This document shows, in pieces, positions 25,054 to 58,380 of a DNA stretch of 64,000 bases (position 1 is the first letter of the stretch; each line of letters begins with the position of its first letter). Location: NCBI RefSeq assembly GCF_900172335.1, contig NZ_FWFX01000005.1, forward strand, positions 186,001 to 250,000. Direction: 5' to 3'. Source of the stretch: Roseovarius albus (GTDB lineage Bacteria > Pseudomonadota > Alphaproteobacteria > Rhodobacterales > Rhodobacteraceae). Under the pieces are notes generated by a model. That model was not told the DNA's origin and made no database searches. It was given only the letters and a program-made list of their open reading frames with translations. The position numbers and the translations under genes are program-made.

Positions 25054-25060
25054 TACTTAT

Positions 25061-26749: not shown

Positions 26750-27375
26750 GTTATTCCCTGAACGAGATTGAGGTCACCGCTAAAAAAGCTGCGCGAGGGG
26801 CCGGATACAGCTGGGGCATGGCCGAAGAAGCGGGCAAAGCTGCGCGCTGGTTGTGCATTCAAGGGCAGGAAGGTTGTGCCACTCTGGCAGGCTTTCTGGG
26901 TCAGATTGATGGGCAGGACCTTTCAGATCATACGCCGCTGACATTGTCGGTAGAATGGAAAGCAAAATCAACGCTTTGCCCGTTGACAAGTGGAGCTGCT
27001 TTATCAGATTGCGCGGCGGATTTGCAGAGCGGAGAGATCACCTTAAAAGAGGTCATCTATCCCGCCTTACTCATGCCCTTTGCCGCGCGGGCGGCAGTGC
27101 GGTTGGGTCGCGTTGTGGCGCTGGAGTGTGAAGGTGCGCGCGCGGTTACAAATGGGGCGGAACTGTCTTTGGATGGGGTATTCCCAACCCGTACGACGCA
27201 GGTGGTGGTGAGCCTGCAAGCAGAGATGCCCGCAGCGTTGCCCCGTCATACGCGCGGAACGCCAACACCGGAAGATCTGGCCACGCTGAGCAAATTTGCC
27301 CACCGCACCTATGCCCCGGCGACCGAGGAATCACGCTTGTTGGGCGCGGGGGCCGGCCTGTCTGACAACGACTAA
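26746..27375 (+). CDS. Uncharacterised protein, DUF3726-like
   Basis: A 209-residue protein started at ATG 26746, overlapping the previous stop by four bases. It begins MSYSLNEIEVTAKKAARGAG and has SWGMAEEAGKAARWLC. This looks like the DUF3726 family from memory, which has no assigned function. It has no membrane segment or signal. Its constant position before an Ldh2-type oxidoreductase suggests it helps that enzyme or its substrate path. Confidence 0.7.
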   Translation: MSYSLNEIEVTAKKAARGAGYSWGMAEEAGKAARWLCIQGQEGCATLAGFLGQIDGQDLSDHTPLTLSVEWKAKSTLCPLTSGAALSDCAADLQSGEITLKEVIYPALLMPFAARAAVRLGRVVALECEGARAVTNGAELSLDGVFPTRTTQVVVSLQAEMPAALPRHTRGTPTPEDLATLSKFAHRTYAPATEESRLLGAGAGLSDND

Positions 27376-36678: not shown

Positions 36679-38019
36679 TCAGGCGGATTTGCGGGCCTCG
36701 GCTTGCAGCGCGCGAAGGCGGCCCTTGAGTTTTTTGTAGGGCAGGCTGGCGGCGGGGATCTCGGCCTCAATCGGGCTCCAGGCTCGTTGACCGGGCTTTT
36801 CGGGCACTGCTTCGGTGATCATGGCGTCGCGTTTTGAGTTATGAACGCACATCGACAGCGGTCCGCGCGCGGTGGCTACCATAAAGACGCAGGATTTGCA
36901 GCGATCTTCCTCAAGCTTTTCCGCATCCATGAAGTTATGAATGAAAAAACTGATCTTTTTTGGCATTTTCCGGTGAAATAGACTCGATTTAAACGCCCAA
37001 ACTTTTCGTATAACAAAGACTAATCCCAGCGCGGCAATGTGCGGGGAACGTATCGCCGTACGCAGGGCGCGGGGCAGAACCTTGCGCTCGACCGACCAGT
37101 CCACTCCCTGCTGTGCGATGGCGTGAAACAGCGTGGTGAAAAAGGGTGGGTCATCATAGAGCGGCACAGTGGTTTTGCCGTTTGTCAGAACGGCGGTGTA
37201 TTTGTTGCAATCCGGGTGACCGATCATCGGCATGTCAAAGGGCAGAGATGTGCCCGCGCCTTGTTCGACCAACTCCATGACAGACTGTTGATTGATCAGG
37301 GTCTCATCGCGTTCCCGCAATATCCCACGCCCGGTGTCAGCCTGCATTTGGAAAGAGGCGAGCGAGATCTGCCCGGCGTGTTGGATGAAGAACTGCACCA
37401 GATCTGGGATCTCATGCACGTTGTCGGCGCAGACAGTCGTATTGAACAAGACCCGCAAGGGCAGCCCAGCAGCGCGCTCCAGGTACTCCAATCGGATCGC
37501 GTTGAGCGCCGCCTCGCTCTCATATCCTTTGCGTTCCTGCGTGACATCGACGTGAAACGCCACATCATCCAGCCCGGCAGCCGCCATCCGTTCCAGCATG
37601 TGCCGGTTGGCCTTGATCCCGTTGGTAAAAAGGGCTGAGCGCATGTTGTGGGCTTTGATTTCGCGTACGATCTCTTCAAGATCCGGGATGGTGCGCAGAG
37701 TCGGATCGCCGCCGGTGATCTGGACATTGGTGTAATCGCCGTAGTGATCATGGATCATCTTGATCCGGCGCTTGAGTTCAAACAGGGGCACGTCACGCAC
37801 AGTTTCGGCCAGATCCGAGAGATAGCACAGCGTGCAGTCGAGATTGCAGCGCTGGGTGATTTCAAGTGCAACGCAGGCGATGGGAAATGTACGCCCGGCC
37901 AACTGCTCTGATCCGAAATGCCCAGACTGTTGCAGGCCCTCTCGCAATGAGGTGGTTGGATCATCTGGATGCGGGCGAGATGGTTGAAAGCGCTGAATGT
38001 CCTGCTTCGTCAAATACAC
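36679..38019 (-). CDS. Radical SAM protein with an extra C-terminal cysteine cluster
   Basis: A 446-residue enzyme from a GTG start. The radical SAM cluster motif is EITQRCNLDCTLCYLSD (C-x3-C-x2-C, near residues 58-65), followed by VQITGGDPTLR (SAM/GGE-like) and the HVDVTQERKGYE region. A second cysteine set, RCKSCVF plus a later C (about residues 380-400), may hold an auxiliary cluster. The family resembles the radical SAM proteins loosely annotated as pterin or peptide modifiers, but the substrate is unknown. A hydrophobic patch around residues 335-350 (IAALGLVFVIRKVW) suggests membrane contact. Confidence 0.82.
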   Translation of the reverse strand: MYLTKQDIQRFQPSRPHPDDPTTSLREGLQQSGHFGSEQLAGRTFPIACVALEITQRCNLDCTLCYLSDLAETVRDVPLFELKRRIKMIHDHYGDYTNVQITGGDPTLRTIPDLEEIVREIKAHNMRSALFTNGIKANRHMLERMAAAGLDDVAFHVDVTQERKGYESEAALNAIRLEYLERAAGLPLRVLFNTTVCADNVHEIPDLVQFFIQHAGQISLASFQMQADTGRGILRERDETLINQQSVMELVEQGAGTSLPFDMPMIGHPDCNKYTAVLTNGKTTVPLYDDPPFFTTLFHAIAQQGVDWSVERKVLPRALRTAIRSPHIAALGLVFVIRKVWAFKSSLFHRKMPKKISFFIHNFMDAEKLEEDRCKSCVFMVATARGPLSMCVHNSKRDAMITEAVPEKPGQRAWSPIEAEIPAASLPYKKLKGRLRALQAEARKSA

Positions 38020-38213
38020 GGAATTTTACCCTGTTGCGGTTGTCAGCATTGCAGCTAAGGTTTTGTTTGATCTTCGCCATTAACGTTCCATCGCGCTGAA
38101 ACAAGTTGCCGTGAGTTGGGCTTAGGCTCTTGCATGCCTGTGGTATCGGGTGACAGTGTGGTTTTGGGTTATGGTAAGATTGTATAAGCCAATCCTTCGG
38201 AGGAGCTCGGGTT

Positions 38214-39722
38214 ATGTCGCAGGTATCGGATTTCGTTTTAGGACTATTGCAACTGCTGTCGTATTTATTCGTCTTCGCAGTTGGTGTTGGGGCGCTGTGG
38301 ATTGCGGTGCTTTATGTACGGGACAAGACGCAAACCGAAAGCACGCTGCGGCGCAACTATCCGGTGATTGCGCGGTTTCGCTATCTGTTTGAGCATATGG
38401 GTGAGTTTCTGCGGCAGTATTTCTTTGCGCTGGATCGTGAGGAATTGCCGTTTAACCGGGCGGAACGGTCATGGGTTTATCGCGCTGCGAAGAATGTCGA
38501 TTCGACGGTGGCATTTGGATCGACCCGAGATTTGCGACCAACGGGCACTATTTATTTTGTGAACTGCCCCTTTCCAACCTTGGAAAAGGACGCGGTGGAA
38601 CCTTCGGCCGTGACCATTGGACCCTATGCCAAACATCCCTACACCACGGATTCCTTTTTTAACATTTCCGGCATGAGCTATGGGGCGATTTCCATTCCTG
38701 CGGTGCGGGCGTTATCGCGTGGGGCCAAGAAAGCTGGGATCTGGATGAACACCGGTGAAGGAGGGTTGTCGCCTTATCATTTGGAGGGTGGGGCGGACAT
38801 CGTATTTCAGATCGGTACCGGCAAGTTTGGGGTGCGCAAGCCCGAAGGTGGCTTTGATGAAGACAAGCTGCGCGAAGTTGCGGCGCATGACGAAGTGAAG
38901 ATGTTTGAGTTGAAGCTGAGCCAAGGGGCCAAGCCGGGAAAAGGCGGCATGTTACCCGGTGAAAAGGTGACCGAGGAGATTGCCCGAATTCGCGGACTGG
39001 AGGTTGGCAAAGATGCGATTAGTCCGAACCGTCACCCGGAAGTGGATAGCGTCGCTGATCTGCTGGATATGTTGAATTACGTTCGCGATCTAACCGGAAA
39101 GCCGATTGGGTTTAAGGCTGTGATCGGCGCTTATGGGTTTTTTGAAGACCTGTGTGAAGAGATTTTGAAGCGTGGCATTGAAAGTGCGCCGGATTTCATC
39201 ACCATTGATAGTGCCGATGGTGGCACCGGGGCGGCACCGATGAGCTTGATAGACAATATGGGCATGCCGTTGCGGGAGAGTCTGCCTTTGGTTGTCGATG
39301 TCCTGATCCGCAACGGGCTGCGGGACCGGATCAAAGTCTGTGTCAGCGGCAAGATGATCAACCCCTCAGAGGTGGCCTGGGCGTTTTGCGCGGGCGCGGA
39401 TTTTGTCAATTCGGCACGCGGATTCATGTTTGCGCTGGGCTGTATTCAGGCCTTGCAGTGCAACAAGAACACCTGCCCCACCGGGATCACCACTCATAAT
39501 CCCAAGCTGCAATATGGGTTGGACCCGACCAACAAGGCGGAACGGGTCGCTTATTACGCCAAGAACATGCGCAAAGAAGTGGGGATCATTGCCCACAGTT
39601 GTGGCGTCTCGGAGCCACGTCTGCTGCAACGCTATCACGCGCGTACAGTATTGGATAACGGTCGGTCTGTTGCGCTGAGTGAGTTGTTTCCGGAGCCGGA
39701 GAACAAATCTGCCGCTGAGTGA
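38214..39722 (+). CDS. FMN-binding glutamate synthase-like protein, membrane-anchored
   Basis: A 502-residue protein with an N-terminal transmembrane helix (about residues 8-32), then a glutamate-synthase central/FMN-barrel domain: FFNISGMSYGAISIPAVRALS, TGEGGLSPYHLEGGADIVFQIG, SADGGTGAAP and the cluster cysteines CIQALQCNKNTCPTGI. It lacks the glutaminase domain of GltB. Such stand-alone proteins may use ammonia or have another redox role, for example in methylamine-linked gamma-glutamyl metabolism. No partner GltD gene is next to it. Confidence 0.88.
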   Translation: MSQVSDFVLGLLQLLSYLFVFAVGVGALWIAVLYVRDKTQTESTLRRNYPVIARFRYLFEHMGEFLRQYFFALDREELPFNRAERSWVYRAAKNVDSTVAFGSTRDLRPTGTIYFVNCPFPTLEKDAVEPSAVTIGPYAKHPYTTDSFFNISGMSYGAISIPAVRALSRGAKKAGIWMNTGEGGLSPYHLEGGADIVFQIGTGKFGVRKPEGGFDEDKLREVAAHDEVKMFELKLSQGAKPGKGGMLPGEKVTEEIARIRGLEVGKDAISPNRHPEVDSVADLLDMLNYVRDLTGKPIGFKAVIGAYGFFEDLCEEILKRGIESAPDFITIDSADGGTGAAPMSLIDNMGMPLRESLPLVVDVLIRNGLRDRIKVCVSGKMINPSEVAWAFCAGADFVNSARGFMFALGCIQALQCNKNTCPTGITTHNPKLQYGLDPTNKAERVAYYAKNMRKEVGIIAHSCGVSEPRLLQRYHARTVLDNGRSVALSELFPEPENKSAAE

Positions 39723-39836
39723 GGTCTATTGTTTGGCGAGATCAAGAACCCCAAACAAAGGTTAATTGGCCCTGTTGTCCTTCCCGAAAAACACACGTAG
39801 GCTGCGCGATACAGTGATTGAAAGGGGCAGACTTAA

Positions 39837-40814
39837 ATGACGCCATTCGCGGTTGCCGGTGTACAAATGTATGTAAATGCATTGCATCCGAATGTTGAAG
39901 GAATGATCCAGCGGCTTGATATTCTGATGGCGCGGTTTCCTTGGACGCAGATGGTTCTGTTCAGCGAGCTGGCTCCCTATGGTCCGCTTAACAAGTTTGC
40001 CCTGCCCGTGCAGAACGAGGCGATAGATCAATTCTGTGCAGCGGCGAAAAAGCATAATGTCTGGCTGATCCCCGGGTCGATGTTTGAAAAGACGCCCGAG
40101 GGTAAGATTTACAACACCGCCACGGTCATCAACCCGCAGGGTGAGGTGATTTCAAACTATCGCAAGATGTTCCCGTTTCGGCCTTATGAAGAAGGTGTTG
40201 AGGCAGGCACAGGGTTTTGCGTGTTTGATGTGCCAGATGTGGGCCGCTTTGGCCTGTCGATCTGTTATGACATCTGGTTTCCTGAAACCACGCGTGAATT
40301 GACCAGCCAAGGAGTTGAGGTGCTGTTGCACCCGGTTTTGACCGGCACCACGGATCGCGAGGCGGAGCTGTCGATTGCCCGTGCAACGGCAGCACAGTTC
40401 CAGTGTTATGTCTTTGACGTCAACGGTTTGGGTGCGGGCGGTGTGGGCCGATCCTGTGTGATTGATCCGTCTGCCACGGTTCTGCATCAGTCTGCCGGAC
40501 AAGAGGATATGTTCCCGATCGAACTGGATTTGGACATGGTCCGCCGCCAGCGCGAGACCGGCATGAAAGGTCTGGGTCAGGTGCTCAAGAGTTTCCGTGA
40601 CAGATCAACCGATTTTTCGGTCTATGACCGCAGCAGCGGCACAGACGCATATTTGAAAACCTTGGGTCCGCTTGAGACCCCAAGGCAAGGCTCTCGTGCG
40701 GGCATCCATGTGGATGTGCCTGCCGAGGTTGAAACAAAAGATATTAATCCGGCCGAAGGTGCTGCCGCACCCGAAGAACCGATTCCCTTTGCTATAGAGG
40801 CCGCAAGCGGCTGA
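39837..40814 (+). CDS. Carbon-nitrogen hydrolase (nitrilase superfamily amidase)
   Basis: A 325-residue enzyme with the Glu-Lys-Cys triad of the superfamily: Glu in LFSELAPYG (about residue 44), Lys in SNYRKMFPF (about 110) and Cys in GLSICYDIWFPE (about 142). A 40-residue tail after position 285 has no recognisable domain. It is followed 58 bases later by a large Orn/Lys/Arg decarboxylase, so an N-carbamoylputrescine or related amide of polyamine degradation is a reasonable substrate. This is inferred from context. Confidence 0.88.
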   Translation: MTPFAVAGVQMYVNALHPNVEGMIQRLDILMARFPWTQMVLFSELAPYGPLNKFALPVQNEAIDQFCAAAKKHNVWLIPGSMFEKTPEGKIYNTATVINPQGEVISNYRKMFPFRPYEEGVEAGTGFCVFDVPDVGRFGLSICYDIWFPETTRELTSQGVEVLLHPVLTGTTDREAELSIARATAAQFQCYVFDVNGLGAGGVGRSCVIDPSATVLHQSAGQEDMFPIELDLDMVRRQRETGMKGLGQVLKSFRDRSTDFSVYDRSSGTDAYLKTLGPLETPRQGSRAGIHVDVPAEVETKDINPAEGAAAPEEPIPFAIEAASG

Positions 40815-40872
40815 CAAATAAGAGGGGGCGGGCCGATCCAGCATAAAGCCAGCAACAACAGGGACAGATCAT

Positions 40873-43635
40873 ATGCAATCCATGGACGACTATTATTCAG
40901 CAGTTCAGTTACGCAATGATCACTGGAGTACGCTGAAGGAAGCGACCGCTGCTTTGGCGCGAGACCCGAATGGAGAGCGTGCTAAGGCGCTCTCGGATAA
41001 GATCGAAGACATCTTCGACTCGCTGGCATTGGTTGAAGGCTATTGGGCGTTTCCGGGCCTGCAGGTGTTTGATCGCGTACGTCGACAGTATAATCACAAA
41101 AGCTATGATGATCTGGCCTTTACTGTGCAACGGATTCTGCGTGCACTGACGACCGGGGCCTATCGTCGCCGTCTGATTCCGCTGGAGCGGGACAGCGTTG
41201 ATGTCGAAGAGCATGAGGATGAAGCGACACAATCGCTTGAGGCGCGCTCCTTGGCCAAGCCGTACTTCGAGGTGATGGTCGTTGATAATCTCAACGAGCA
41301 TCAGGAACAGTGGCTGAAAAATAATTTCGCCAAGCTGCGCCGTCCCGAAGATCCGTTTCACTATGAAATCGTCACGGTGCCCAGTCTCAAGGACGCGTTG
41401 ATCGGGGTTTTATTCAACCACAACATTCAGGCCATTATTGTCCGCCCCGGGCTGGTATTGGATTCACAGGTCGAGCTGGAATTGCTCAAGCGGTATATCA
41501 GCCAGGCCAGCAGTGTGGACAATCTGAACGCGCTGGAACCCGAAAATTACGGCCCCGAGCTGTGCCGTTTGATCGCGCAGGTGCGGCCCGAATTGGACGC
41601 CTATCTGGTGACGGAACGGTCTGTGGAAGAGATTGCCGGGTTGGATCTGGGGATCTGTCGGCGGGTGTTCTACAATCAGGAAGATTTTTCCGAGCTGCAC
41701 CTGAACATCCTGCGCGGAGTGCAATCGCGTTATAACACGCCGTTTTTCACCGCCTTGGTGGAATATTCCAAGCAACCTACCGGCGTGTTCCATGCGATGC
41801 CAATCAGCCGCGGCAAGTCGATCACCCGCAGCCATTGGATTCAGGATATGGGTGCCTTCTACGGGCCCAATATCTTTATGGCGGAAACCTCAGCCACATC
41901 TGGCGGCCTCGATAGCCTGCTGGAACCGCACGGGCCAATCAAGGAAGCGCAGGAACTGGCCAGCCGGGCGTTTGGATCAAAGCAGACGTTTTTCGCCACC
42001 AACGGCACCTCGACCTGTAACAAGATCGTGGTGCAGGCGCTGGTGCGTCCGGGGGATATCGTGCTGGTCGACCGCGATTGCCACAAATCGCACCATTACG
42101 GCATGGTACTGGCGGGTGCGCAGGTGGTGTATCTGGATAGCTATCCGCTGAATGAATATTCAATGTACGGTGCTGTGCCGCTGCGCGAAATCAAACATCA
42201 GCTGTTGCAGCTGAAAGAGCAAGGCAAACTGGACCGTGTGCGGATGCTGTTGCTGACCAACTGCACCTTCGACGGCATTGTCTATAACGTCGAGCGGATG
42301 ATGGAAGAGTGCCTGGCGATCAAACCTGACCTGGTTTTCTTGTGGGACGAGGCGTGGTTTGCCTTTGCCCGCTTTGGACCGATCTATCGTCACCGTACGG
42401 CGATGAATGCGGCCAATACCTTGCGGGCCAAGTTCAGATCCGAAAGCCATGCAATCGCTTATGAAGCGCAGCAAAAGGCCTTAGCGGGCGCGGATCTCGA
42501 AACGCTGTTGAACACGCGGCTGATCCCGCCACCAAATGCACGAGTGCGGGCCTATGCGACCCAATCAACTCACAAGACGCTGACGTCACTCAGGCAGGGG
42601 TCGATGATTCACGTCAACGATCAGGATTTTAAAGGCGAGGCTGAGGCAAGTTTCCACGAAGCCTATATGACGCATACGTCGACCTCGCCCAACTACCAGA
42701 TCATTGCATCACTGGATGTGGGGCGACGACAGGTCGAGCTGGAAGGGTTCGAATTTGTCCAGCGGCAAGTTGAGGCGGCGATGTCGATGCGGCGCGCGAT
42801 TTCGACCCATCCTAAGTTGAAGAAGTATTTCAAGGTGCTGACCTCGGGGGACATGATCCCTGAAGAGCATCGCGAAAGTGGGGTGACCAGCCATTATAAC
42901 CCCGAGCAAGGCTGGACGGATATCTGGGATTGCTGGCAGAATGATGAGTTCGTGCTGGATGCCACGCGCGTTACATTGGCCGTCGGCGGCACTGGTTGGG
43001 ATGGCGATACCTTCAAGACCAAGATTCTGATGGATAAATACGGTATCCAGATCAACAAAACCTCGCGCAATACCGTGTTGTTCATGACCAATATCGGCAC
43101 GACGCGGTCCTCGATCGCTTATCTGATTGAGGTGCTGGTTGAGATTGCCAATGATCTCGATGATCTGCTGGATGATGCCTCGATGATGGAGCGGCGTGGG
43201 TTTGAAAAACGTGTCTCGAATCTAATGCATGAATTGCCGCCTCTACCGGATTTCAGTCGCTTCCATGACGGGTTTCGCACCGATGACGCGACGTCTGAGG
43301 GGGATATTCGCTCGGCGTTTTTCCTCGCTTATGACGAAAACAACTGCGATTATCTGGAACTGGATGGGTCCGTGAAAGCAGCCATGGAGAGTGGGCAAGA
43401 AGTGGTCTCTGCCTCCTTCATTATCCCTTATCCGCCCGGTTTCCCGATCCTCGTACCGGGGCAAGTCGTCAGCAAGGAGATCCTTGAGTTCATGCGGGCA
43501 CTGGATGTGAGCGAGATCCATGGCTATCGCCCGGATTTGGGACTGCGCGTATTCACGCAGGATGCGCTCAAACAGCAGCTCAAGGCCAATGCCGCCCGGC
43601 TGAAGATGAACGCCGAGCGATACAAGATCACTTAG
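40873..43635 (+). CDS. Orn/Lys/Arg decarboxylase, group III PLP type, long form
   Basis: A 920-residue protein. After an N-terminal extension of about 130 residues comes the response-regulator-like wing domain (FEVMVVDNLNEHQEQWLKNNF). The PLP domain follows, with the Asp of VFLWDEAWFAFARFGP near residue 492 and the PLP lysine in TQSTHKTLTSLRQGS near residue 567. A C-terminal domain follows (FIIPYPPGFPILVPGQ). It is longer than E. coli AdiA/CadA (about 715-755 residues). Which of arginine, lysine or ornithine is the substrate is open. The next gene to the left is a nitrilase-family amidase. Confidence 0.9.
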   Translation: MQSMDDYYSAVQLRNDHWSTLKEATAALARDPNGERAKALSDKIEDIFDSLALVEGYWAFPGLQVFDRVRRQYNHKSYDDLAFTVQRILRALTTGAYRRRLIPLERDSVDVEEHEDEATQSLEARSLAKPYFEVMVVDNLNEHQEQWLKNNFAKLRRPEDPFHYEIVTVPSLKDALIGVLFNHNIQAIIVRPGLVLDSQVELELLKRYISQASSVDNLNALEPENYGPELCRLIAQVRPELDAYLVTERSVEEIAGLDLGICRRVFYNQEDFSELHLNILRGVQSRYNTPFFTALVEYSKQPTGVFHAMPISRGKSITRSHWIQDMGAFYGPNIFMAETSATSGGLDSLLEPHGPIKEAQELASRAFGSKQTFFATNGTSTCNKIVVQALVRPGDIVLVDRDCHKSHHYGMVLAGAQVVYLDSYPLNEYSMYGAVPLREIKHQLLQLKEQGKLDRVRMLLLTNCTFDGIVYNVERMMEECLAIKPDLVFLWDEAWFAFARFGPIYRHRTAMNAANTLRAKFRSESHAIAYEAQQKALAGADLETLLNTRLIPPPNARVRAYATQSTHKTLTSLRQGSMIHVNDQDFKGEAEASFHEAYMTHTSTSPNYQIIASLDVGRRQVELEGFEFVQRQVEAAMSMRRAISTHPKLKKYFKVLTSGDMIPEEHRESGVTSHYNPEQGWTDIWDCWQNDEFVLDATRVTLAVGGTGWDGDTFKTKILMDKYGIQINKTSRNTVLFMTNIGTTRSSIAYLIEVLVEIANDLDDLLDDASMMERRGFEKRVSNLMHELPPLPDFSRFHDGFRTDDATSEGDIRSAFFLAYDENNCDYLELDGSVKAAMESGQEVVSASFIIPYPPGFPILVPGQVVSKEILEFMRALDVSEIHGYRPDLGLRVFTQDALKQQLKANAARLKMNAERYKIT

Positions 43636-43636
43636 T

Positions 43637-46600
43637 TTAAGAGCGCGACTGTGCAGAAAGTTTGGGATTCGCCTGCGTGATGGGCGTGTTCTGGATGGTG
43701 ATGGACCCATCGGTTCGGATATCGAGGATCATGCCGTCGTGCAACTGGTCCAACCCGGTGCAGCCAACCAGCATAAGGATATCGCGTTCGCGTGCGACAA
43801 TCGCCATATGGCTGAGCCAGCCACCGATTTCGCTGAGCACGCCGCCGGATCGCTGCACCCAAGGCAGCCATGTGGGGTTGAGCATGCGACAAACGATGAT
43901 GTCGCCATCTTTGAACCCATCGAACGCCGCCGGGCTTTCATCCGCGACATGGAACACGTGACCAGTATTCCCTTCGCTGCCAGCTACACAAGTTCCCGAC
44001 AGATCGGCATCATGTTCACCGCCCACAGACGAAGATGGTGCTGAAAGCTGCTCGCATTCTCGCAGAGTCAAATGAGTCTGGCTTGGCGCCTGTGACGCGA
44101 GCAGTGCCAAACGCTCTTTGCGACGCTGAGCCTTGGCCCTGATCAGCGCTGTGTCTACTTCTGCGAGGGTTTTAAGTTCATCAAGCTCAAGCTGGAAAAT
44201 CAGATCCAACAATCCAGTTTGGTTGGACAAGGCATGGATGGCGCGCCGGAGTTGGGCAAAGAGCTTGAGCGCCTCGTGTTTTGCCTGTTCCTTTAGATCC
44301 TGAAAAGCAATGGCCAAATCCACTGGGTTGTCTGGCTCTGTCGGCTTGCACGCGGCCTGGGCGCTGGGCATCGCCGTCTCCAGCAACGGCCAGAGCAACG
44401 CAGGAGCGTCAGCATAACGCGGAATGCTAAGTTCATAGTCATAGATCGCGCGGTGGCCCATTTGTGCCATTAAGGCGGTTTTTTGTTCGCCTTCAGGCAG
44501 GGCTGCGCAGGCGTCAATCATCCGGATCGGGGCGTGCGGCAGATGGGGATGTTGCAAGGCCTCTTGCGCTGCGGGGTCGTTTTCGGCAAGCGCCTCGGCC
44601 TCGCTCAGGGTAAAGCCCGCGATGATGTTAATCTTTTCCGCCTCGACATAGATGTCTTCGATCAGCTTTGCCTGCAGGGTCTGAATGGTGTCGATCAACT
44701 GCTGTCGGGGCAAAGCCTCAAAAACCACGGCCTGCCAGAACGCCAGATCTTGTGCCAAGGCCGGGATCATCTGATCGCGAAACTCGGTAATCATCTGCGG
44801 TGCCCGTTTCCGCAGCTGTTTGGCCTTGGCCTTGCTCAGGCGCAGAGTCAGGCCGGTCTTGAGGCGCTTGTCCACGTAGGTCCGTCCAAACAGATTGACC
44901 AGATAATCAGGCGGCCCTTCGGGCAGGGTGTAGGCCACACCAAGCTGACGGCAGGCCAGATCAACACTACCGCCCGGCGCCCAAATGCGCGACATCAGGG
45001 AAAACGACAGCGGCGTGGGTTTGGGCAACACCTCTGACATCTCATCCTGTTCAAGGATCACTGTATCAGGGTCAGCGTCCTGATAGGTCTCTAATATGCG
45101 TTGCCATTCGCGATTTCGAGCCAATAGCGCCGGGTCTCGTGCTGCCAGCGTGGTAATGTCGCGGCTTTGAACGATGTAGAACCTGCCGCCCGCATAGGCC
45201 CATTCGATGTCTTGCGGGCAGCCAATCAGGGCTTCGATCTGTTGTCCCAATGCGATCAGCGGAGAGAGGTCAATTGGAGTCGAAACAGAGTCTATTATTG
45301 ACAAACTATACCGCCCAAGACGTAAACTTTGCGGTGTGACACGACCCGATACCAGATCCTCACCATCGCCTTTGGCCAATTCGATCATCATCAATCCAGG
45401 CGCTGTTGGGTCCTGCGTGAACATCACCCCAGCATAATCGGGGCTGATCATCCGCTGGATCAGGATATTGCCCTTGTGCTGCATAGATGCATCCTGATCA
45501 TAGCTGGCGGACCGGTCAGAACTGAACGAGGTGATTACCGTGTCCAGTGCCGCGCGCAACGTCTCATCCGTGACATTCAACACGCTGTCAAATACCCCGG
45601 CATAGCTGTTGTCTGCACCGTCTTCCCCCGTGGCGGAACTACGCACAGCGCAGGGGGTCGGACCGATCTGTTGCCAGATCGATTGCACAAACCTGTCCTT
45701 TTGCGCATCTGTCATTGCCAGATAGCGGTCGATCGCGCTGGCGCGGACGACCAGCCCATCGGGGATCGGGAGCCCAGCGTTTTTGAGCACCGACAGCCGA
45801 AAGGACTTGTTTCCGCTGCCTTGCAAAGAGGCGCTGAGCGGAAGGGGAATGACGCCCTTTGGCAGCTTAGAATCGAGTCTATTCAAGCGCATTTTGTTCA
45901 GTTTTCCTTTGATACGCCCGCCGAATCCCGTGACATATCCGCGTTGGATCAACAACAACATCAAACTGAAACACAGATAGACGTTACCTGCCGCACTCAA
46001 GCGAAAGCACAGGACAAACAGCAGTGGTACACCGAAGGCCCACCACAGGATCGCTTGCCGTCTTGTCTTGGCTACAGCCCAGTGCAGATAGACCCCACCA
46101 AGGAGGGCGAACAACAAGGGTAGTAGATGGCTGGGATCTGGTTGTCCTAATGTGGTGATCCAGAGGAAATGATCTGATGTCATCTGCGCAGCCTGCCCTG
46201 CGGCGCTGAGCCCCAGCATCATGATAGGCAGAAATAGTAGTGCGGTCAGATTGCGCATCGGGGTCAATCCCTGGTCTGCATAGAACTGCTGTACGGCCCG
46301 GGCCTTGCGGATGGGATCGTGGTGCAATTTTTCTTTCAGAGCGCGCAATCCATCGGTATTTTGTGCTGTTGTGATCTGATCTCGTTCGGATTTCAGCGCG
46401 ATAGGGAGTACCAGTACGCGCGACAGCAGCGACAGCATCAGAAGGCCAAGGACAAAATGCGCCCGATCTCCCACCCAGATTAGGGCGCTGGCGAGGGCGT
46501 CAACGGCCTTGTCCCAGAGTGTCGCCTGCTGTTCGATCAGCCAAGCCTGCACATGTGGTTTGGGCTTGGGGGGAATGAAAAACTCCCACGGCGTGGTGTA

Positions 46601-47680
46601 GCGGCCAAGGAATTCGATCCCAGCCTCGCCCATCTCCAAGCCCAACACCTGCGCCATGAAGCAACTGCGCCGGTCATAGCAGGCCGCGATGGTGGGTTTG
46701 TCCTGCAATTGCGCGATGCGCTGCGTCAGTTCCTCGGTGGGCATAGCGCGGATCGGGATGTTGATCGCACCGGGCAGGTGGCCAGTGGCGAAATCACCGG
46801 GATAACGCGTATCAACGATCTGCAAATCCATACTCTGGCGCAGGGTGCTGAACTGCTTTGTTCCGATCAGCACGTCCTTGTTGGGATAGTCGGGAATGGC
46901 CCGCAGATCGGACAAGGTTTTGACCGCCTTGTCACTAAACGGCTTTCCCTCAACAATCCACTTTTCAATCCCCCCAGCGATGAAACGACAATCAGTGCCT
47001 CGTGCAGCTAATTCCGCGCAGGTTTCGCTGCTGCGGTTGCCATTGTGGCAAAAAAGGACGACTTGTTTATCAACTAAATATTGATCTGCGTTAAGAAAAT
47101 CTGGAAAACGCACATGCTGAGCCCCGGGTAATGTACCCATTCGGTGCTCACCCGATTCGCGGACGTCGAAAAAAGCCACATTGCCGTCAGACACCAATTG
47201 GTGTGCCTCATCCGTGGTGATGGCAAGAGGGCTGAGTGATTGTTTGCTGAAATTTGTCTCTTTAAGGTTTTCATCCTTAATGGCCTGTCCATCAAACTGC
47301 GCGGGGCGCGTCAATGTGGCGTGTAGGTGAGATTGTTCGGCCGATTTTTGTGTCTGATACTGCCAAATATTGATCGCCGCCAACAGGGTCGCGACGCTGA
47401 GCAGGCCAATGATGGTTCGAACTGGATAGCGATGGGATTCGCCTTTGGCTGACCGGGTGTATCCCAATCTACGTGCAATGACCGTGGTGGCTCCTGTGAT
47501 TGTAGCAATCGCCACAGCAAGTACCTGTGACAATGAAGAAACTGAGCCAATTACAAGCTCTGGAGATGGAATTGCCAGAGCTGGAGGTGCAAAAAGAAAT
47601 ACCACGCTTAACAACATTGCGAGACGGATGAAATTTGAGTTGAGAAACGGCTTTGGCTTCTCTGCCGCGTGGCGGGTCAT
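43637..47680 (-). CDS. Rhodanese-rhodanese-YidC-like-ATP-grasp-phosphohistidine fusion protein
   Basis: A 1347-residue inner-membrane protein, open across its length. Residues 18-36 and 88-106 are hydrophobic helices. Rhodanese 1 (about 150-250) has active-site CHNGNRS (Cys211); rhodanese 2 (about 265-375) has CYDRRSC (Cys334). Residues about 405-580 match the YidC/Oxa1 insertase domain: RVLVLPIAL with the conserved Arg421, a cytoplasmic helix hairpin and FLWITTLGQPDPSHLLPLL. Residues 610-845 are a PEP-synthase/PPDK-type ATP-grasp domain (VRSSATGEDGADNSYAGV, GVMFTQDP, DIEWAYAGGRFYIVQSRD). Residues about 1245-1330 are a swivelling phosphohistidine domain (His1291 in GGWLSHMAIVARE). The PEP-binding barrel of true PEP synthases is absent, as in rifampicin phosphotransferase. 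Its true function is unknown. Confidence 0.85.
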   Translation of the reverse strand: MTRHAAEKPKPFLNSNFIRLAMLLSVVFLFAPPALAIPSPELVIGSVSSLSQVLAVAIATITGATTVIARRLGYTRSAKGESHRYPVRTIIGLLSVATLLAAINIWQYQTQKSAEQSHLHATLTRPAQFDGQAIKDENLKETNFSKQSLSPLAITTDEAHQLVSDGNVAFFDVRESGEHRMGTLPGAQHVRFPDFLNADQYLVDKQVVLFCHNGNRSSETCAELAARGTDCRFIAGGIEKWIVEGKPFSDKAVKTLSDLRAIPDYPNKDVLIGTKQFSTLRQSMDLQIVDTRYPGDFATGHLPGAINIPIRAMPTEELTQRIAQLQDKPTIAACYDRRSCFMAQVLGLEMGEAGIEFLGRYTTPWEFFIPPKPKPHVQAWLIEQQATLWDKAVDALASALIWVGDRAHFVLGLLMLSLLSRVLVLPIALKSERDQITTAQNTDGLRALKEKLHHDPIRKARAVQQFYADQGLTPMRNLTALLFLPIMMLGLSAAGQAAQMTSDHFLWITTLGQPDPSHLLPLLFALLGGVYLHWAVAKTRRQAILWWAFGVPLLFVLCFRLSAAGNVYLCFSLMLLLIQRGYVTGFGGRIKGKLNKMRLNRLDSKLPKGVIPLPLSASLQGSGNKSFRLSVLKNAGLPIPDGLVVRASAIDRYLAMTDAQKDRFVQSIWQQIGPTPCAVRSSATGEDGADNSYAGVFDSVLNVTDETLRAALDTVITSFSSDRSASYDQDASMQHKGNILIQRMISPDYAGVMFTQDPTAPGLMMIELAKGDGEDLVSGRVTPQSLRLGRYSLSIIDSVSTPIDLSPLIALGQQIEALIGCPQDIEWAYAGGRFYIVQSRDITTLAARDPALLARNREWQRILETYQDADPDTVILEQDEMSEVLPKPTPLSFSLMSRIWAPGGSVDLACRQLGVAYTLPEGPPDYLVNLFGRTYVDKRLKTGLTLRLSKAKAKQLRKRAPQMITEFRDQMIPALAQDLAFWQAVVFEALPRQQLIDTIQTLQAKLIEDIYVEAEKINIIAGFTLSEAEALAENDPAAQEALQHPHLPHAPIRMIDACAALPEGEQKTALMAQMGHRAIYDYELSIPRYADAPALLWPLLETAMPSAQAACKPTEPDNPVDLAIAFQDLKEQAKHEALKLFAQLRRAIHALSNQTGLLDLIFQLELDELKTLAEVDTALIRAKAQRRKERLALLASQAPSQTHLTLRECEQLSAPSSSVGGEHDADLSGTCVAGSEGNTGHVFHVADESPAAFDGFKDGDIIVCRMLNPTWLPWVQRSGGVLSEIGGWLSHMAIVARERDILMLVGCTGLDQLHDGMILDIRTDGSITIQNTPITQANPKLSAQSRS

Positions 47681-47917
47681 GACCTATCGCCTCATTTTGA
47701 CTAAAATAAAATTCAACTATTAAGGGAGTTGAGAGGTTAATAAATCGTTTATGAAATAATTGGTTAACGATGCAGCCGTTCAAGACAGCTAGGTTTTGCA
47801 CAGTCAAACATTGTGCTTTTGAATTAACGAAGTCTTTTGAATCTGCGGTCTTAATGGGCGGTGTTCTTTTGGCTGGTGCAACAAGCGGCGCCCTAACAGA
47901 TGACTGAGGATAGCGAC

Positions 47918-48793
47918 ATGACAGGTCTTTGTGGACTGCTGATCAACTACTTTATCAAAACGGCCTTGCCGATTTTAGCGGCCCTTTTTCTGGGTCTGCA
48001 AACATCTGTGACCAATGCTGAGATCCAGCTGACCTTTGGTACATATACGGCGGATAAACCAACCACCACGGTGAAAAAGTACAAACCCTTTCTGGATTAT
48101 CTCGCACAAGAGATGTCAGAAATTTTGGAAGAGCCGGTGTTCATAAAAATGAAGATCGCCAGTGATTATGAAGCAGGCATCAATCAATTGGTCAGCGGCA
48201 AGGTTGATTTTGCCCGGTTTGGCCCCGCATCCTATGTCACCGCTTTCACGCGTAATGACGGAATTCGTATCATTGCGATGGAGGCGAAGAAGGGAAAGAA
48301 ACGCTTCAAAGGCGTTATAGTAGTACATGCCGATAATGAGATGCAAACATTGGCTGAGCTGTCGCAGCACAGTTTCGCATTCGGGAGTGAACTGTCGACC
48401 ATTGGCCGCTATTTGGCGCAAAGTTATCTAATTCAAGCCGGGGTCACCAGCAATGATCTGAGCAACTATGCCTACCTTGGGCGCCATGATCGCGTCGGAA
48501 TGGCGGTAGGAAGCGGAAAATTTACTGCTGGCGCGCTGAAGGAAAGTACATTCAAAAAACTGGTCGAACAGGGTGTTCCACTTCGACCGCTCTTTGAATT
48601 TGACAATGTGACCAAACCTTGGATTGCTGCTGTGGACCTGGACCCTGCAGTGACGGCTGCAATGCGACAAGTCATGTTGAGTGCCGAAGATAAAGAGGCG
48701 ATACAAAACGTTAGCAAGGGAGGTTTTCTAACCGGAACAGACTCTGATTTTAATCTAATACGTGAGGCGATGATACAGAGCGAAAGATTCTGA
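47918..48793 (+). CDS. PhnD-like phosphate/phosphonate-type periplasmic binding protein
   Basis: A 291-residue protein, best started at ATG 47918 with GAGGA eight bases upstream; an ATG 18 bases earlier lacks one. A signal peptide covers about residues 1-33. The mature part reads as a PhnD/TauA-like binding protein ([65 protein letters not shown]). It is followed two bases later by a hybrid histidine kinase and no permease, so it probably senses a ligand for that kinase, as TorT does for TorS. Confidence 0.85.
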
Positions 48794-48795
48794 AA

Positions 48796-51057
48796 ATGTC
48801 GCTTTTCAATTTTTTCAAAAACCAGCGCATCAATACGCAGTTCGTGTTGTCTATGACCCTTGCTGCTGCGTTGGTGACCTTTTTGGTTGGGGAATATGAG
48901 CGTCGTTCCGAGACACAACGCCTGAATGCAGAATTGTTGTCTCAGGCCAACCTGACAGTCTCTTTGCTAAGTGGCTTACTGGTTGAACCGATCATCATTC
49001 AAGATACACCTGTCTTAGAAAGCGCCTTGGACGAGGCATTGCAACGCAATCCAAAATTGTTGAATATTACGATCAAGGATGATGCCGGGATGGTGATCGC
49101 CAAAACAGTCCGGCATGCAAATCCCAACAGCGCTGGTGTGCGAAAGTTTACTAACGACGTCATTGTCGAGGGTGAACCATTTGGGACGATGGAGGTCGAT
49201 TGGTCAACAGCGGAAGGACAAGCCCAAATCGCGGATAATGTTGTTCGCCTCAGAATCGTGACCGCGATCACTGTTGCAGCCTTGTCGCTGTTGTTTCTAT
49301 TGCAAACAAACTTTTTGGCCCTGCGCCCACTGCGCAATATACACGAGCGGATGTCGGCAGTGATATCAGGGCAAAAACACAACAGGAAATGTCTTTCTTC
49401 CTTTGTCAGCCAAGAGTTCAAGGCCTTGGACTTTTCGGTCACCGTACTGCAGGACACTTTCGCAGAACGAGACGAGCGAGAATGTGCACTGGAGCAAGCA
49501 AAGGAAGAGGCGGACAAGGCCAGCCGCGCTAAATCTGATTTTCTGGCCAATATGAGTCACGAGATTCGCACTCCGATGAATGGAGTGATCGGCATGGCCG
49601 AATTGATGCAAGAGTCCGACCTAAATGAAGATCAGAAAATGTATGCTGATACGATAGCCAAGTCAGGTGCGGCCCTGTTGGCGATCATCAATGACATTTT
49701 GAATTTCTCTAAAATTGAGGCTGGTAAAATGGAGCTTGAAGTGGCCCCGTTTGACCTGCAATCGGCAATGGAAGATGTGGTGACATTATTATCGACAAAG
49801 GCGAGTGAAAAATCTGTCGAAGTTACGTTGCGCTATGATCCGGAATTGCCCAGATTCTATGAGGGCGACGTCGGGAGGCTAAGACAGGTAATTACGAATA
49901 TTGCCGGGAATGCCATCAAATTTACTTTGGAAGGCTATGTCTACATTGAGGTCACTGGGGTCAAACGTGCGGATGATTATGCGCTGACAATTTCGATTAT
50001 CGACACGGGTATCGGTATTCCACCTGATCAGTTGGACAAAATTTTCAATGAATTTGAGCAAGTCGATAGTGCACGTAACCGGCAGTTTGAAGGCACCGGA
50101 TTGGGTTTGGCGATTTCTACCCGTCTGATTGCCCTTATGGGTGGGCGGATTTCTGCGGTTTCCGAACTAGAGCAGGGCTCGGCCTTTATGATCGAAATAC
50201 CTTTGGTCGGCACACGCGAGCCTTGTGAAATGCAGTCGGCAGGCACACTAGACATGACTGGCCTGCATGTGCTGGTTGTTGATGACCTTGAGCTGAATCG
50301 TAGGATTTTGTCCGAAAGACTGGGAACTTGGGGGGTCAAATCGGTCTTGGCTTCATCGGGGGCTGAAGCGCTGGAGGTGCTTGCTCAACATCAAGAGAAG
50401 TTTGATCTGATCATTCAAGATTATCAAATGCCGGGAATGGATGGGGAGGAGCTGGCGAAGAAGATAAGAGCAACCGAAACGTTCAAAAATTTGCCACTGA
50501 TCATTTTGTCCTCGGTAGATCAATCGCTCAGTGTTGCGACGCGCGATGAAATCGGATCATGCGAATTGCTTCTTAAGCCGGTGCGTTCTGAACAGCTACG
50601 TAATACCATAGCCCGCGCCTTGCATATGAGTTCGCGCCCTAGACCTGAGAAAGAACCTCGGAAGGAGGCAGTTAAAAACGAATGTCGCGCGATTAATATC
50701 TTGGTCGCTGAAGACAACAAGACCAATCAATTTGTCGTCAAAAAGATGCTGAAAGATGCGCCGGTTAAATTGACCTTTGCGAATGATGGAATTGAGGCTG
50801 TGGATCATTACGTCAGTGTCAAACCCGACATCATATTAATGGACATGTCGATGCCGCGAATGGATGGCTTGGAGGCGACCAAGGCTATTAGGCAGATGGA
50901 GCATGAACGAACGACTCAAAACTGTCCGATCATCGCATTGACGGCCAACGCGATGCGAGAAGATCGCGACAAGTGCCTGCAGGCCGGGATGAACGACTTC
51001 CTCAGTAAGCCAATAATCAAAAAAGCGCTGCTAGAGACAATTGACACGTGGCACTAG
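48796..51057 (+). CDS. Hybrid histidine kinase (sensor-HisKA-HATPase-REC-REC)
   Basis: A 753-residue kinase. Two transmembrane helices (about 17-33 and 155-176) flank a periplasmic region of about 120 residues. The HisKA box [11 protein letters not shown] holds His255. A full ATPase domain follows ([24 protein letters not shown]). Receiver 1 has Asp542 ([12 protein letters not shown]) and receiver 2 has Asp683 ([11 protein letters not shown]). It has no Hpt domain or DNA-binding output. Phosphate must pass to another Hpt protein, for which the free Hpt at 16667 is the only candidate in the window. It is translationally close to the binding protein, which it probably senses. Confidence 0.92.
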
Positions 51058-55201: not shown

Positions 55202-56662
55202 TTACGTCAGGATGTCCGACAGTTTAGCACCAATCCGCGCCTTGAGGTCAACGCTACCATTTTCAATCCAGGCATCGGCATCGGAACGCTCAAACAAGGC
55301 AGGATACCAGTTTTCGCTCAGGAACCTGTCCTGGGTATGCTGATCCGTCAGAAAGCTGTTGTCGGGCGCGGCGCGTTGCACCACGTCAAAGGCGATGGTG
55401 TCGGCATTGACGGGGCAGCCCGCTGCCATCTGATTGGTCCAGCCCACTAATTCATCACATAACGCCAGCATTTCAAGTGATCCGGTTCTGCCGCCGGACA
55501 GAAAACCCAGATTGTGCACAAAAGGTGTACCCGCCAGCCCGGCGATAGCCATATTGGCCCCGGCTTCGGCGGCGGCTTGCGCGTCAAACGCGTGCGAGTC
55601 CGAACAGCCCGACCCGATCCACGACGGCACGCCGATGGACTTGAAATAATCCGCAGCCCCCAGCCCATTCAGCATGTATTCGGGCGACCCGTAGGCCAAA
55701 TCTGCTTGCCGCATATCCATGGGCAAAACCGCAGATCCGCTCATGATCGGGGCGCCCGGTTCCGTGAGTTGGTGGATGACAATCCCGGCGATGGCCTCCG
55801 CCGAAGATTGGGCAATGGCCCCGGCCACGCTGATCGGGCTGGACATGCCGGGGAAGGTGGCCGGGTAACACACGATTGGCAGGTGGTGGCGCGCGGCATT
55901 GATCACACGGTCGCAAAAATCCTCGGGCAGGCGCAGGGGCGAGATTGGCCCCATCAATTCCAGCGCAATCGGCTTGTCCGCCAGATTGTTGTATCCCCCG
56001 GCCAGATCCGCCAAATGGGCCAATATGCGGCTCTGAATATGCTCATCATGGGCCAAAACGGCAGCGGGTTTCGAGCAATGCGCAAAAAGCGCTTTCACCG
56101 TCTCCACCGCCTCATCCTCGGCTGAAATATCACTGGGATAGCCGAGGGAACAGGACATGCTGAGATTAGGCAGTGCTTCGCAGACCTTGGCGGTTTCGCG
56201 AATATCGTTCAGCGTACAGGGACGTAGTTCTCCGGTTGTCCGGTCCAGAATGCGCACGCAGTTGTGCCCCGGGCAATAGGACGTGATCCGGCTGGAGGTA
56301 TCGACCCTGAGCTTGCCATTCAGATCATACAGCTTGATCTCACGCGGCACCGTTTCAAGTGCGCGTTCGACCAGATCCGACGGCATCCGCAGGTATCCGT
56401 CATCGCCCAATGTGCAGCCATGATCCGCGATCAGCATGGCCCGCACGCCATCATGCTCAACAATCACGCCAATCTGCGACAGGATTTTTAATACCGCCTC
56501 GTGGATCTGTGCCAACTGCCCCACATCCGCCACACGCAATTGCAGCGCCTGATCCTTGAGCGGCGAGATGTCGGCAATTTGGGCTTTGCGGTTGACCTTG
56601 TCCGAACGCGAGCTTTTACGGCGGCCACCGCTGCGGCGTGGTTTTTGCGCGAGTTCAGCCAT
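55202..56662 (-). CDS. Trimethylamine methyltransferase (MttB) family protein, non-pyrrolysine
   Basis: A 486-residue protein of the MttB superfamily. A basic N-terminal tail (RRSGGRRKSSRSDK) precedes the barrel. Motifs include LKILSQIGVIVEHDGVRAML, CPGHNCVRILDRTTGELRP and GSGCSDSHAFDAQAAAEAGANM. The frame is open for 486 codons with no in-frame amber stop, so it is the non-pyrrolysine kind, like the glycine betaine methyltransferase subgroup. Those pass a methyl group to a corrinoid protein, and none is encoded nearby. The substrate here is unknown. It is the last gene of a three-gene operon. Confidence 0.9.
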   Translation of the reverse strand: MAELAQKPRRSGGRRKSSRSDKVNRKAQIADISPLKDQALQLRVADVGQLAQIHEAVLKILSQIGVIVEHDGVRAMLIADHGCTLGDDGYLRMPSDLVERALETVPREIKLYDLNGKLRVDTSSRITSYCPGHNCVRILDRTTGELRPCTLNDIRETAKVCEALPNLSMSCSLGYPSDISAEDEAVETVKALFAHCSKPAAVLAHDEHIQSRILAHLADLAGGYNNLADKPIALELMGPISPLRLPEDFCDRVINAARHHLPIVCYPATFPGMSSPISVAGAIAQSSAEAIAGIVIHQLTEPGAPIMSGSAVLPMDMRQADLAYGSPEYMLNGLGAADYFKSIGVPSWIGSGCSDSHAFDAQAAAEAGANMAIAGLAGTPFVHNLGFLSGGRTGSLEMLALCDELVGWTNQMAAGCPVNADTIAFDVVQRAAPDNSFLTDQHTQDRFLSENWYPALFERSDADAWIENGSVDLKARIGAKLSDILT

Positions 56663-57282: not shown

Positions 57283-58380
57283 TCACAAGCCAATGTCTTG
57301 ATTCGTGGTCATGTCATCAGTGGTCAGGCCGAATTCTTGTAACAGCGCTTGTGTCGCATCGGTTTGAAAGAAGGTGACCTCTCCATCCGTGAGGAATGCC
57401 TCATCATCAAACCGCACTGTCGGGTCGATGATGTGCCAGTTGATCTCTCCAGGCGGATAGTCCCCGCAGGTATGAAAATGCAGGTGGCGTGGTGAGCCAA
57501 AGATCATCCCGTTCCACCGCACCGGGTCATCTTTGGCAGCGGCAAAGTACCCGGTGCCGGGGTTAAGCCCGTGATGCCAGGAATGGATCAGGGTTTCATC
57601 AAGGCCAAACTTTTCCGCCACCATCCGGGCATGGGCGCGAAACGCCTCGACGTCTGGCCCGTTGCCTTGAATGTCGGTGCTATGTCCGTTTTCAACATGA
57701 ATGGTAATGGGCGTTTTCAGGTAATGCACCTCGGGCGAATAAGCATGGGTATTGGTTCCGGTGACCCATCGTTGCAGCACGATTTTGCCGTTCATCGTTT
57801 GCGCAGAAATCGGTTTGTGCACTGACATCGGGAACAGGCGCACGGCAAAGCCACCGCTTTCGGCGGATACAGGCTTGGGGGCCGGCATCTCACCACTAAC
57901 ATCGGTGCCCGCCGGGCAGGTGATGTGCCATGTTTTCTTACTGTCCAGCGCACCGTTGAACAGGGCAACCATGCGCACCATGAAATCATGATCATAGGTT
58001 GCTGCGCGCGAGGCCAAGGTATCAACATCAAGCGTATAGACCATGGTTTTGCTACCCGTGCCGGGCAGAGACCTGAACCGCATCTGATCTCCGATCCTAT
58101 TGAGGAACACGGTATGGTCCACCTGTGTCATGGCGGCATTCAGGGCTTCGGGCACATCATCAGGGCCGCTGGCGCGTGGTGTAGACAGGGTCAAAACGGT
58201 TGCTCCCATGTCCCGTGCTTTGTCTGCAATGATGTCGATCACCGCATTTTCAAAGTAATCGATCTGCCGATCTTCGGTGATCAACAGCAGGCTTTGGCCC
58301 TTTGAGATCTGCACGCAGTTGCGCAGTAAATTCCGGGCACCTGTGGTGGCCAGCGCTAGTTTGTTGGCGTGTAAATTCAT
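57283..58380 (-). CDS. NicX/M29 aminopeptidase-like metalloprotein
   Basis: A 365-residue protein resembling the M29-like superfamily that includes 2,5-dihydroxypyridine dioxygenase (NicX) and thermophilic aminopeptidases. Recognisable parts are ISKGQSLLLITEDRQIDYFENAV at the N-terminus (core KGQSLLLITEDR), THAYSPEVHYLKTPITI, and the metal-site-like SWHHGLNPGTGYFAA and SPRHLHFHTCGDYPPG. A dioxygenase or hydrolase acting on a ring or amide compound is plausible. It is the first gene of the operon under the LacI-type operator. Confidence 0.72.
   Translation of the reverse strand: MNLHANKLALATTGARNLLRNCVQISKGQSLLLITEDRQIDYFENAVIDIIADKARDMGATVLTLSTPRASGPDDVPEALNAAMTQVDHTVFLNRIGDQMRFRSLPGTGSKTMVYTLDVDTLASRAATYDHDFMVRMVALFNGALDSKKTWHITCPAGTDVSGEMPAPKPVSAESGGFAVRLFPMSVHKPISAQTMNGKIVLQRWVTGTNTHAYSPEVHYLKTPITIHVENGHSTDIQGNGPDVEAFRAHARMVAEKFGLDETLIHSWHHGLNPGTGYFAAAKDDPVRWNGMIFGSPRHLHFHTCGDYPPGEINWHIIDPTVRFDDEAFLTDGEVTFFQTDATQALLQEFGLTTDDMTTNQDIGL

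Follow-up and report, generated by a model that had tools for sequence, protein, structure and literature searches.

A 64,000-nucleotide stretch of the Roseovarius albus genome (contig NZ_FWFX01000005.1, positions 186,001 to 250,000; hereafter the window) carries on its minus strand, at 43637-47680, one uninterrupted reading frame of 1347 codons, whose 1347-residue product joins two rhodaneses, a YidC-like membrane domain and a dikinase half composed of ATP-grasp, acceptor and swivel (phosphohistidine) domains (Table 1). Stops are abundant on the plus strand of the same interval. Two plus-strand genes lie beside this fusion gene; the first encodes a PhnD-like periplasmic binding protein, the second a hybrid histidine kinase. 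A preliminary description of this DNA had recognised the fusion and a set of five domains—two rhodaneses, a YidC-like insertase, an ATP-grasp domain of the phosphoenolpyruvate (PEP) synthase type and a phosphohistidine domain—but had neither given the strand nor seen the conserved partner genes at 47900-51057.

Table 1. Features of the fusion gene and its partner genes, in coordinates of the window.
Feature	Coordinates	Strand	Basis
Fusion gene including stop codon	43637..47680	-	Open frame; full-length homologues 42-62% identity
Residues 1-108, apparent signal peptide and two hydrophobic helices	47357..47680	-	Hydropathy and charge scan
Rhodanese 1, residues 151-250, CHNGNRS, Cys211, Cys221 and Cys231, predicted periplasmic	46931..47230	-	
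Rhodanese 2, residues about 265-368, CYDRRSC, Cys334 and Cys340, predicted periplasmic	46577..46888	-	
YidC-like five-helix membrane domain, residues 387-584, predicted cytoplasmic hairpin, Arg421	45929..46522	-	
ATP-grasp domain of PPDK/PEP-synthase/RPH type, residues 606-846, predicted cytoplasmic	45143..45865	-	
RPH-type (rifampin-binding-like) acceptor domain, residues about 872-1212	44045..45067	-	
Swivel (phosphohistidine) domain, residues 1230-1325, SEIGGWLSH	43706..43993	-	Pfam PEP-utilizers
His1291 codon	43808-43810	-	
PhnD/PtxB-like periplasmic substrate-binding protein, divergent neighbour	47900..48793	+	Pfam Phosphonate-bd 151 bits
Hybrid sensor histidine kinase (HisKA, HATPase_c, two REC domains)	48796..51057	+	Pfam

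Domains and predicted membrane topology of the fusion protein

The five named domains are borne out by Pfam, where all matches exceed the curated cut-offs: PPDK_N (128 bits, cut-off 27), Rhodanese (84.6 bits over two stretches, cut-off 22.2), PEP-utilizers (55.6 bits, cut-off 23.1, residues 1256-1319) and 60KD_IMP, the YidC family (39.2 bits, cut-off 35, residues 410-583). The possibility, raised in the preliminary description, that a domain search would return only two of the domains thus falls away, and its motifs are all in place, namely CHNGNRS with Cys211, CYDRRSC with Cys334, Arg421, VRSSATGED, IEWAYAGGRFYIVQSRD and His1291 within WLSHMAIVARE. What it had overlooked are an RPH-type domain in the middle of the dikinase half (RPH, rifampicin phosphotransferase), an apparent signal peptide and two N-terminal helices. 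The signal-peptide boundary, AxA followed by IPSPELVIGS, is conserved as judged by eye, and A36-L42 are invariant. AlphaFold models resemble solved rhodaneses, YidC and RPH.

Conservation was assessed in an alignment of 38 proteins, i.e., the window protein and those from 37 of 41 homologous loci (L002-L042) with a frame longer than 1250 residues; L023, L025, L028 and L035, too short or interrupted, were left out. Cys211, Cys221, Cys231, Cys334 and Cys340 are invariant in all 38, as are Arg421, Lys625, Arg680, Glu826, Gln838 and Arg840. His1291 is kept in 37/38, the exception being L024, which comes from a metagenome assembly and aligns with the query no further than residue 1273. In alignment A1, which has 22 members counting the window protein, Pfam recognises PPDK_N, Rhodanese and 60KD_IMP in every member and PEP-utilizers in all but one.

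The dikinase half shares the ATP-grasp/acceptor/swivel order and a catalytic-type histidine with RPH of Listeria monocytogenes (PDB 5hv1/5hv2/5hv3/5fbs). Its ATP-grasp domain has the ATP-site residues of RPH-type small-molecule dikinases, a rifampin-binding-type acceptor domain sits between ATP-grasp and swivel, and the swivel sequence SEIGGWLSH, with His1291, fits the motif T/SxxGGxxxH given in PMC12167813. Structure comparison aligns 626 residues with RPH 5hv3 at 22% identity, the match extending over positions 460-1183 of the model for 5hv3 and 460-1065 for 5hv1, at a high root-mean-square deviation of 12-14. An ordinary PEP synthase is ruled out by the longer fold match to RPH and by the missing PEP-binding barrel: no barrel family appears among the Pfam matches at E 0.1, and the protein ends with the swivel domain. 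The regulatory threonine of PEP synthase, two residues before the catalytic histidine (motif taken from PMC12167813), is replaced by Leu1289, which is at least 90% conserved. Nor is the protein a rifamycin phosphotransferase proper, as it scores 126.5 bits against NCBIfam NF041857, whose cut-off is 999. Domain order, conserved residues and modelled fold together make a membrane-bound dikinase of RPH type well supported, in agreement with the preliminary description; its further proposal, that a lipid or membrane-associated metabolite is the target, is conjectural.

Unlike the fusion, RPH consists of three domains only, with no rhodanese or membrane part, according to PMC12167813. The same source describes HpeHI, PpsAB and CreHI as two-component small-molecule dikinases, gives AMP as the main product of HpeHI, and suggests that phosphorylation holds diffusible phenols within the cell. 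A Thioclava plasmid protein (L085:4353-8703) matches the dikinase half at 27.9% identity over two pieces; its gene run, with a flavin adenine dinucleotide (FAD) oxidoreductase, an aminotransferase and a methyltransferase near a homoserine-lactone synthase, looks biosynthetic.

The membrane domain shows the five-helix fold with hairpin and groove arginine that is characteristic of YidC/Oxa1 proteins, judging from the 60KD_IMP match, the fold match and Arg421; against the NCBIfam YidC core model TIGR03592 it scores 39.2 bits, below the cut-off of 84.3. The host genome keeps a separate canonical YidC (open frame of 604 residues, 211 bits), which would leave the YidC-like domain of the fusion free for specialisation. 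In YidC of the E. coli type the periplasmic domain is a different one. The fusion differs from YidC/Oxa1 insertases (PDB 3wo6, 3wo7, 6al2) in carrying two rhodaneses before the core and an enzyme after it. Counts of Lys+Arg against Asp+Glu are 6:1 in the loop between the first and second helices, 9:6 in the YidC hairpin, 3:0 in the next loop and 8:1 in the stretch after the last helix, all presumed cytoplasmic, and 0:2 and 1:0 in the long and short loops presumed periplasmic. Combined with the known membrane orientation of YidC, these charges put the rhodaneses outside and the dikinase inside, and the former are accordingly predicted to be periplasmic and the latter cytoplasmic.

A dedicated insertase or modifier of membrane proteins, in which the YidC-like domain would insert or hold a specific protein that the dikinase either phosphorylates or supplies with energy for its handling, would account for the retained fold with Arg421 and for a second YidC-like protein beside the canonical one in the same genome. 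The C-terminal half, however, resembles a small-molecule dikinase, and no conserved client gene stood out among the frequent neighbour families, from which frames shorter than 130 residues would escape; we regard this explanation as quite improbable.

Both N-terminal domains show the rhodanese fold with an active-site cysteine. The loop of the first, CHNGNR, fits the CxxGxR of standard rhodaneses, and that of the second, CYDRRSC, lacks the glycine. The invariant cysteines, by their predicted periplasmic location, suggest a sulfur or redox gate.

Recurrence of the fusion and a two-gene form

The 41 homologous loci comprise 37 from genome contigs and four from plasmids, with genera partly shared. 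The genome-contig scan, which covered all phyla and can detect close relatives only, returned the 37 loci exclusively under Rhodobacteraceae-type names, with best segments 48-62% identical; the carriers are marine members of the Roseobacter group. In a plasmid scan, 81 of 266 matching records carry at least 80% of the fusion protein in one place; the 30 plasmid matches listed belong to Phaeobacter, Leisingera and Parasedimentitalea, and the gene was located on plasmid pPGA2_239 of Phaeobacter inhibens 2.10 and on the megaplasmid of Ruegeria sp. TM1040, two strains in laboratory use. Genome searches found the fusion in 9/295 genomes of the host family, in 1/289 genomes of a class-wide draw (the window's own) and in 3/299 of a phylum-wide draw, where two further genomes gave dikinase-only matches; a dikinase-profile search of a phylum-wide draw of 398 genomes returned the same five. 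These draws cover one phylum, with at most two candidates scored per genome, and their absences are not absolute.

The homologues are labelled 'PEP/pyruvate-binding domain-containing protein' in the plasmid records. As this is their only name there, it could speak for a faulty assembly or annotation that has linked an ordinary PEP synthase to unrelated genes, but the identical architecture in finished plasmids and many genera and the lack of a PEP-binding barrel leave this explanation virtually no probability, and the conserved fusion already refutes it. The recurring fusion is not an assembly artefact, a concern that the preliminary description had itself raised.

That description had also envisaged separate genes in other genomes, and these do exist. 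In another class of the phylum, 2 of 78 genomes searched (family label f171) hold a membrane gene of 633-639 codons and a dikinase gene that overlap by four bases when taken as longest frames; in one of them (G682) the dikinase gene extends past the contig end. An overlapping gene pair in another class favours coupling over artefact. The dikinase of the pair matches the C-terminal half of the fusion over 657 columns, middle domain included (profile comparison, E 5e-57). Its membrane partner matches the N-terminal half weakly in a whole-length profile comparison (probability 9.5). Its start resembles that of the fusion (LPTPDALISVAN; one form reads PAYA followed by LPTPDA), and it has a YidC-like domain: with a 60KD_IMP cut-off of 35 bits, L057 passes at 37.4 bits and L056 falls short at 24.1. 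While HpeHI is split between an ATP-grasp part and an acceptor/swivel part, the two-gene form here separates a membrane part from a complete dikinase. At L023 (4499-8515), a stop interrupts the fusion frame at the end of the YidC-like domain, near the division point of the two-gene form.

In the two-gene form, neither Pfam nor profile comparison detects a rhodanese in the soluble portion of the membrane protein, and the invariant columns of the two proteins hold only one cysteine. The core unit would therefore consist of the YidC-like part and the dikinase, and the rhodaneses look like a feature of the Rhodobacteraceae, judging from these sequences. The sulfur chemistry that the preliminary description had attached to the system is thus consistent with the Rhodobacteraceae form and its five predicted periplasmic cysteines, and does not extend to the core.

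The PhnD-like binding protein, the hybrid kinase and the wider neighbourhood

The binding-protein gene is found at 38/41 homologous loci (in L024 as a contig-end piece only), the other three contigs beginning inside the fusion, and the kinase at 37/41, the exceptions L024, L025, L028 and L035 being cut by contig ends; these counts come from the 41-locus comparison and not from the neighbour-family clustering used below. Fusion and binding-protein gene are divergent in 37 of the 38 cases and convergent in L023, as also in L058. In the host family, the binding protein (E <=1e-40) occurs in 10/295 genomes, i.e., in 9/9 with the fusion and in 1/286 without it, in a draw of the same size as that for the fusion and of the same genomes as far as listed (hypergeometric 2.4e-16, relatedness of the genomes ignored). 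The fusion-less genome, G089, holds both binding protein and kinase; in G120 the fusion and the binding-protein/kinase pair stand near the ends of different contigs, and in G019 they lie apart. Neither f171 genome has a PhnD-like binding protein.

A PhnD-fold binding protein adjoining a histidine kinase, both conserved, is the arrangement of AioX/AioS. AioX-AioS and TtrS/ThsS share a PhnD-like periplasmic protein, separate or fused, with a histidine kinase, according to PMC5908839 and PMC5408782; compared with these systems, the kinase here is a hybrid with two REC domains. No response regulator with a DNA-binding output domain adjoins the kinase in the window, where the neighbours of the pair are the fusion and, on the other strand, an aldehyde-dehydrogenase-like frame recognised by eye. 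The sequences between fusion and binding-protein gene share no 8- to 10-mer in more than 20 of 38 cases that could mark a regulatory motif.

Among solved structures the binding protein is closest to PtxB, and phosphonate binders are also near. In AioX-AioS the same fold senses arsenic oxyanions (PMC5908839); tetrathionate is the probable ligand of the PhnD-like domain of TtrS, and thiosulfate sensing was demonstrated for ThsS (both PMC5408782). By analogy with these relatives the ligand is likely an oxyanion. Thiosulfate, for example, could be sensed by the PhnD-like protein of a sulfur-oxyanion system in which its sulfane sulfur passes to the rhodaneses in the periplasm, the dikinase then making use of the outcome or signalling it. 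The TtrS/ThsS precedent, the predicted periplasmic double rhodanese with its five invariant cysteines, and the co-occurrence of binding protein and kinase with the fusion are all consistent with such a system; nevertheless, the closest solved structures are those of PtxB and phosphonate binders, the fold also senses arsenic oxyanions, the ligand is not predictable here, and both the binding protein and any recognisable rhodanese are missing from the two-gene form, so that we consider this alternative unlikely.

Neighbour families were clustered from frames of at least 130 residues, with an overlap filter that loses some genes. A tviB-like family (polysaccharide-type UDP-sugar dehydrogenase) lies near the fusion at 27/46 loci, a MurR/RpiR-type regulator at 19/46 and a zinc-binding-protein family at 31/46, the last absent from the window and from the divergent loci L058-L060. 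Zinc-uptake-type genes (binding protein, Fur-family regulator, ATPase and permease) adjoin the kinase in five fusion-bearing plasmid records (L039-L042, L084), and are treated here as shared plasmid order.

The tviB family is a weak pointer to surface glycans, and hence to a lipid or polyprenol kinase that would accept a membrane lipid (an isoprenoid alcohol, a hopanoid or similar) in its YidC-like groove and convert it into a phospholipid precursor. The RPH-type acceptor domain in a membrane-embedded form and the coupling of the YidC-like part to the dikinase, by fusion or operon, in two classes would fit such an enzyme. Against it, the annotated neighbours in five plasmid records include no recognisable gene of lipid biosynthesis, tviB is not near the fusion in the window or in L058-L060, and we know of no lipid kinase with an RPH-type fold; a lipid kinase therefore has, in our estimate, a rather small chance of being correct.

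At 36679-43635 in the window, a radical SAM gene on the minus strand stands beside plus-strand genes for glutamate-synthase-domain, nitrilase-family and Orn/Lys/Arg decarboxylase proteins, the stop of the last (920 residues) adjoining that of the fusion. These four kinds of gene were considered as partners and rejected, none being matched in the flanks of L002-L042 as far as these reach; the glutamate-synthase-like gene also occurs on other Leisingera plasmids. A phage or defence origin was likewise rejected: no relative was found in viral contigs, the fusion has no PADLOC match, and the weak PADLOC matches of the kinase are confined to its REC and ATPase domains. Elsewhere in the window are a 586-residue frame within 24989-27375 that overlaps a DUF3726 protein and has no Pfam match at E 0.001, an MttB-type trimethylamine methyltransferase homologue (55202-56662, minus strand), a 365-residue frame without Pfam match close to it (57283-58380), and a 525-residue protein (59982-61559) in which a Core-2/I-branching glycosyltransferase domain is joined to DUF5928.

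A possible membrane-embedded small-molecule dikinase

The most straightforward role for a dikinase joined to a YidC-like domain at the inner face of the membrane would be to phosphorylate something that resides in the membrane or passes through it. The explanation that we favour, tentatively and at slightly less than an even chance, is a membrane-embedded, RPH-like small-molecule dikinase with a YidC-like docking groove and periplasmic sulfur or redox control. By analogy with its family, the cytoplasmic ATP-grasp domain would cleave ATP, the swivel would carry phosphate on His1291, and the middle domain would bind the acceptor; the products would be the phosphorylated acceptor, AMP and Pi. Instead of inserting proteins in general, the YidC-like domain would offer a docking groove within the membrane, through which a compound of hydrophobic or amphipathic nature is handed over from the bilayer to the acceptor site, and phosphorylation inside may trap, activate or detoxify this compound. 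The two rhodaneses, predicted to be periplasmic and endowed with five invariant cysteines, may gate the enzyme by sensing or carrying sulfane sulfur or redox state, and in Rhodobacteraceae the PhnD-like protein and hybrid kinase would belong to the same system, probably as its control.

A bolder form of this explanation, which we find conceivable but doubtful, takes the YidC fold as a gate in the membrane through which a phosphohistidine dikinase is served, and not as a device for protein insertion. A compound would be imported or captured by vectorial phosphorylation, its entry depending on the persulfide or redox state that the periplasmic rhodaneses read, and expression would be tuned by the PhnD-like sensor pair. 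If true, the protein would found a class of transmembrane enzymes of its own, comparable to the sugar phosphotransferase system but driven by ATP and contained in a single protein.

The component families are known, and to our knowledge their combination and a membrane-embedded dikinase are undescribed; the preliminary description, too, had known of no such system, and literature searches, which covered open PubMed Central papers and are weak evidence, returned no description. The characterised relatives RPH, phenylphosphate synthase and HpeHI are, as far as we know, all soluble. With a membrane-embedded member, the substrates of small-molecule dikinases would come to include compounds that reside in the membrane or pass through it, and the YidC fold would be seen at work within an enzyme, while the partner sensor would offer a handle on the signal and thereby on the substrate.

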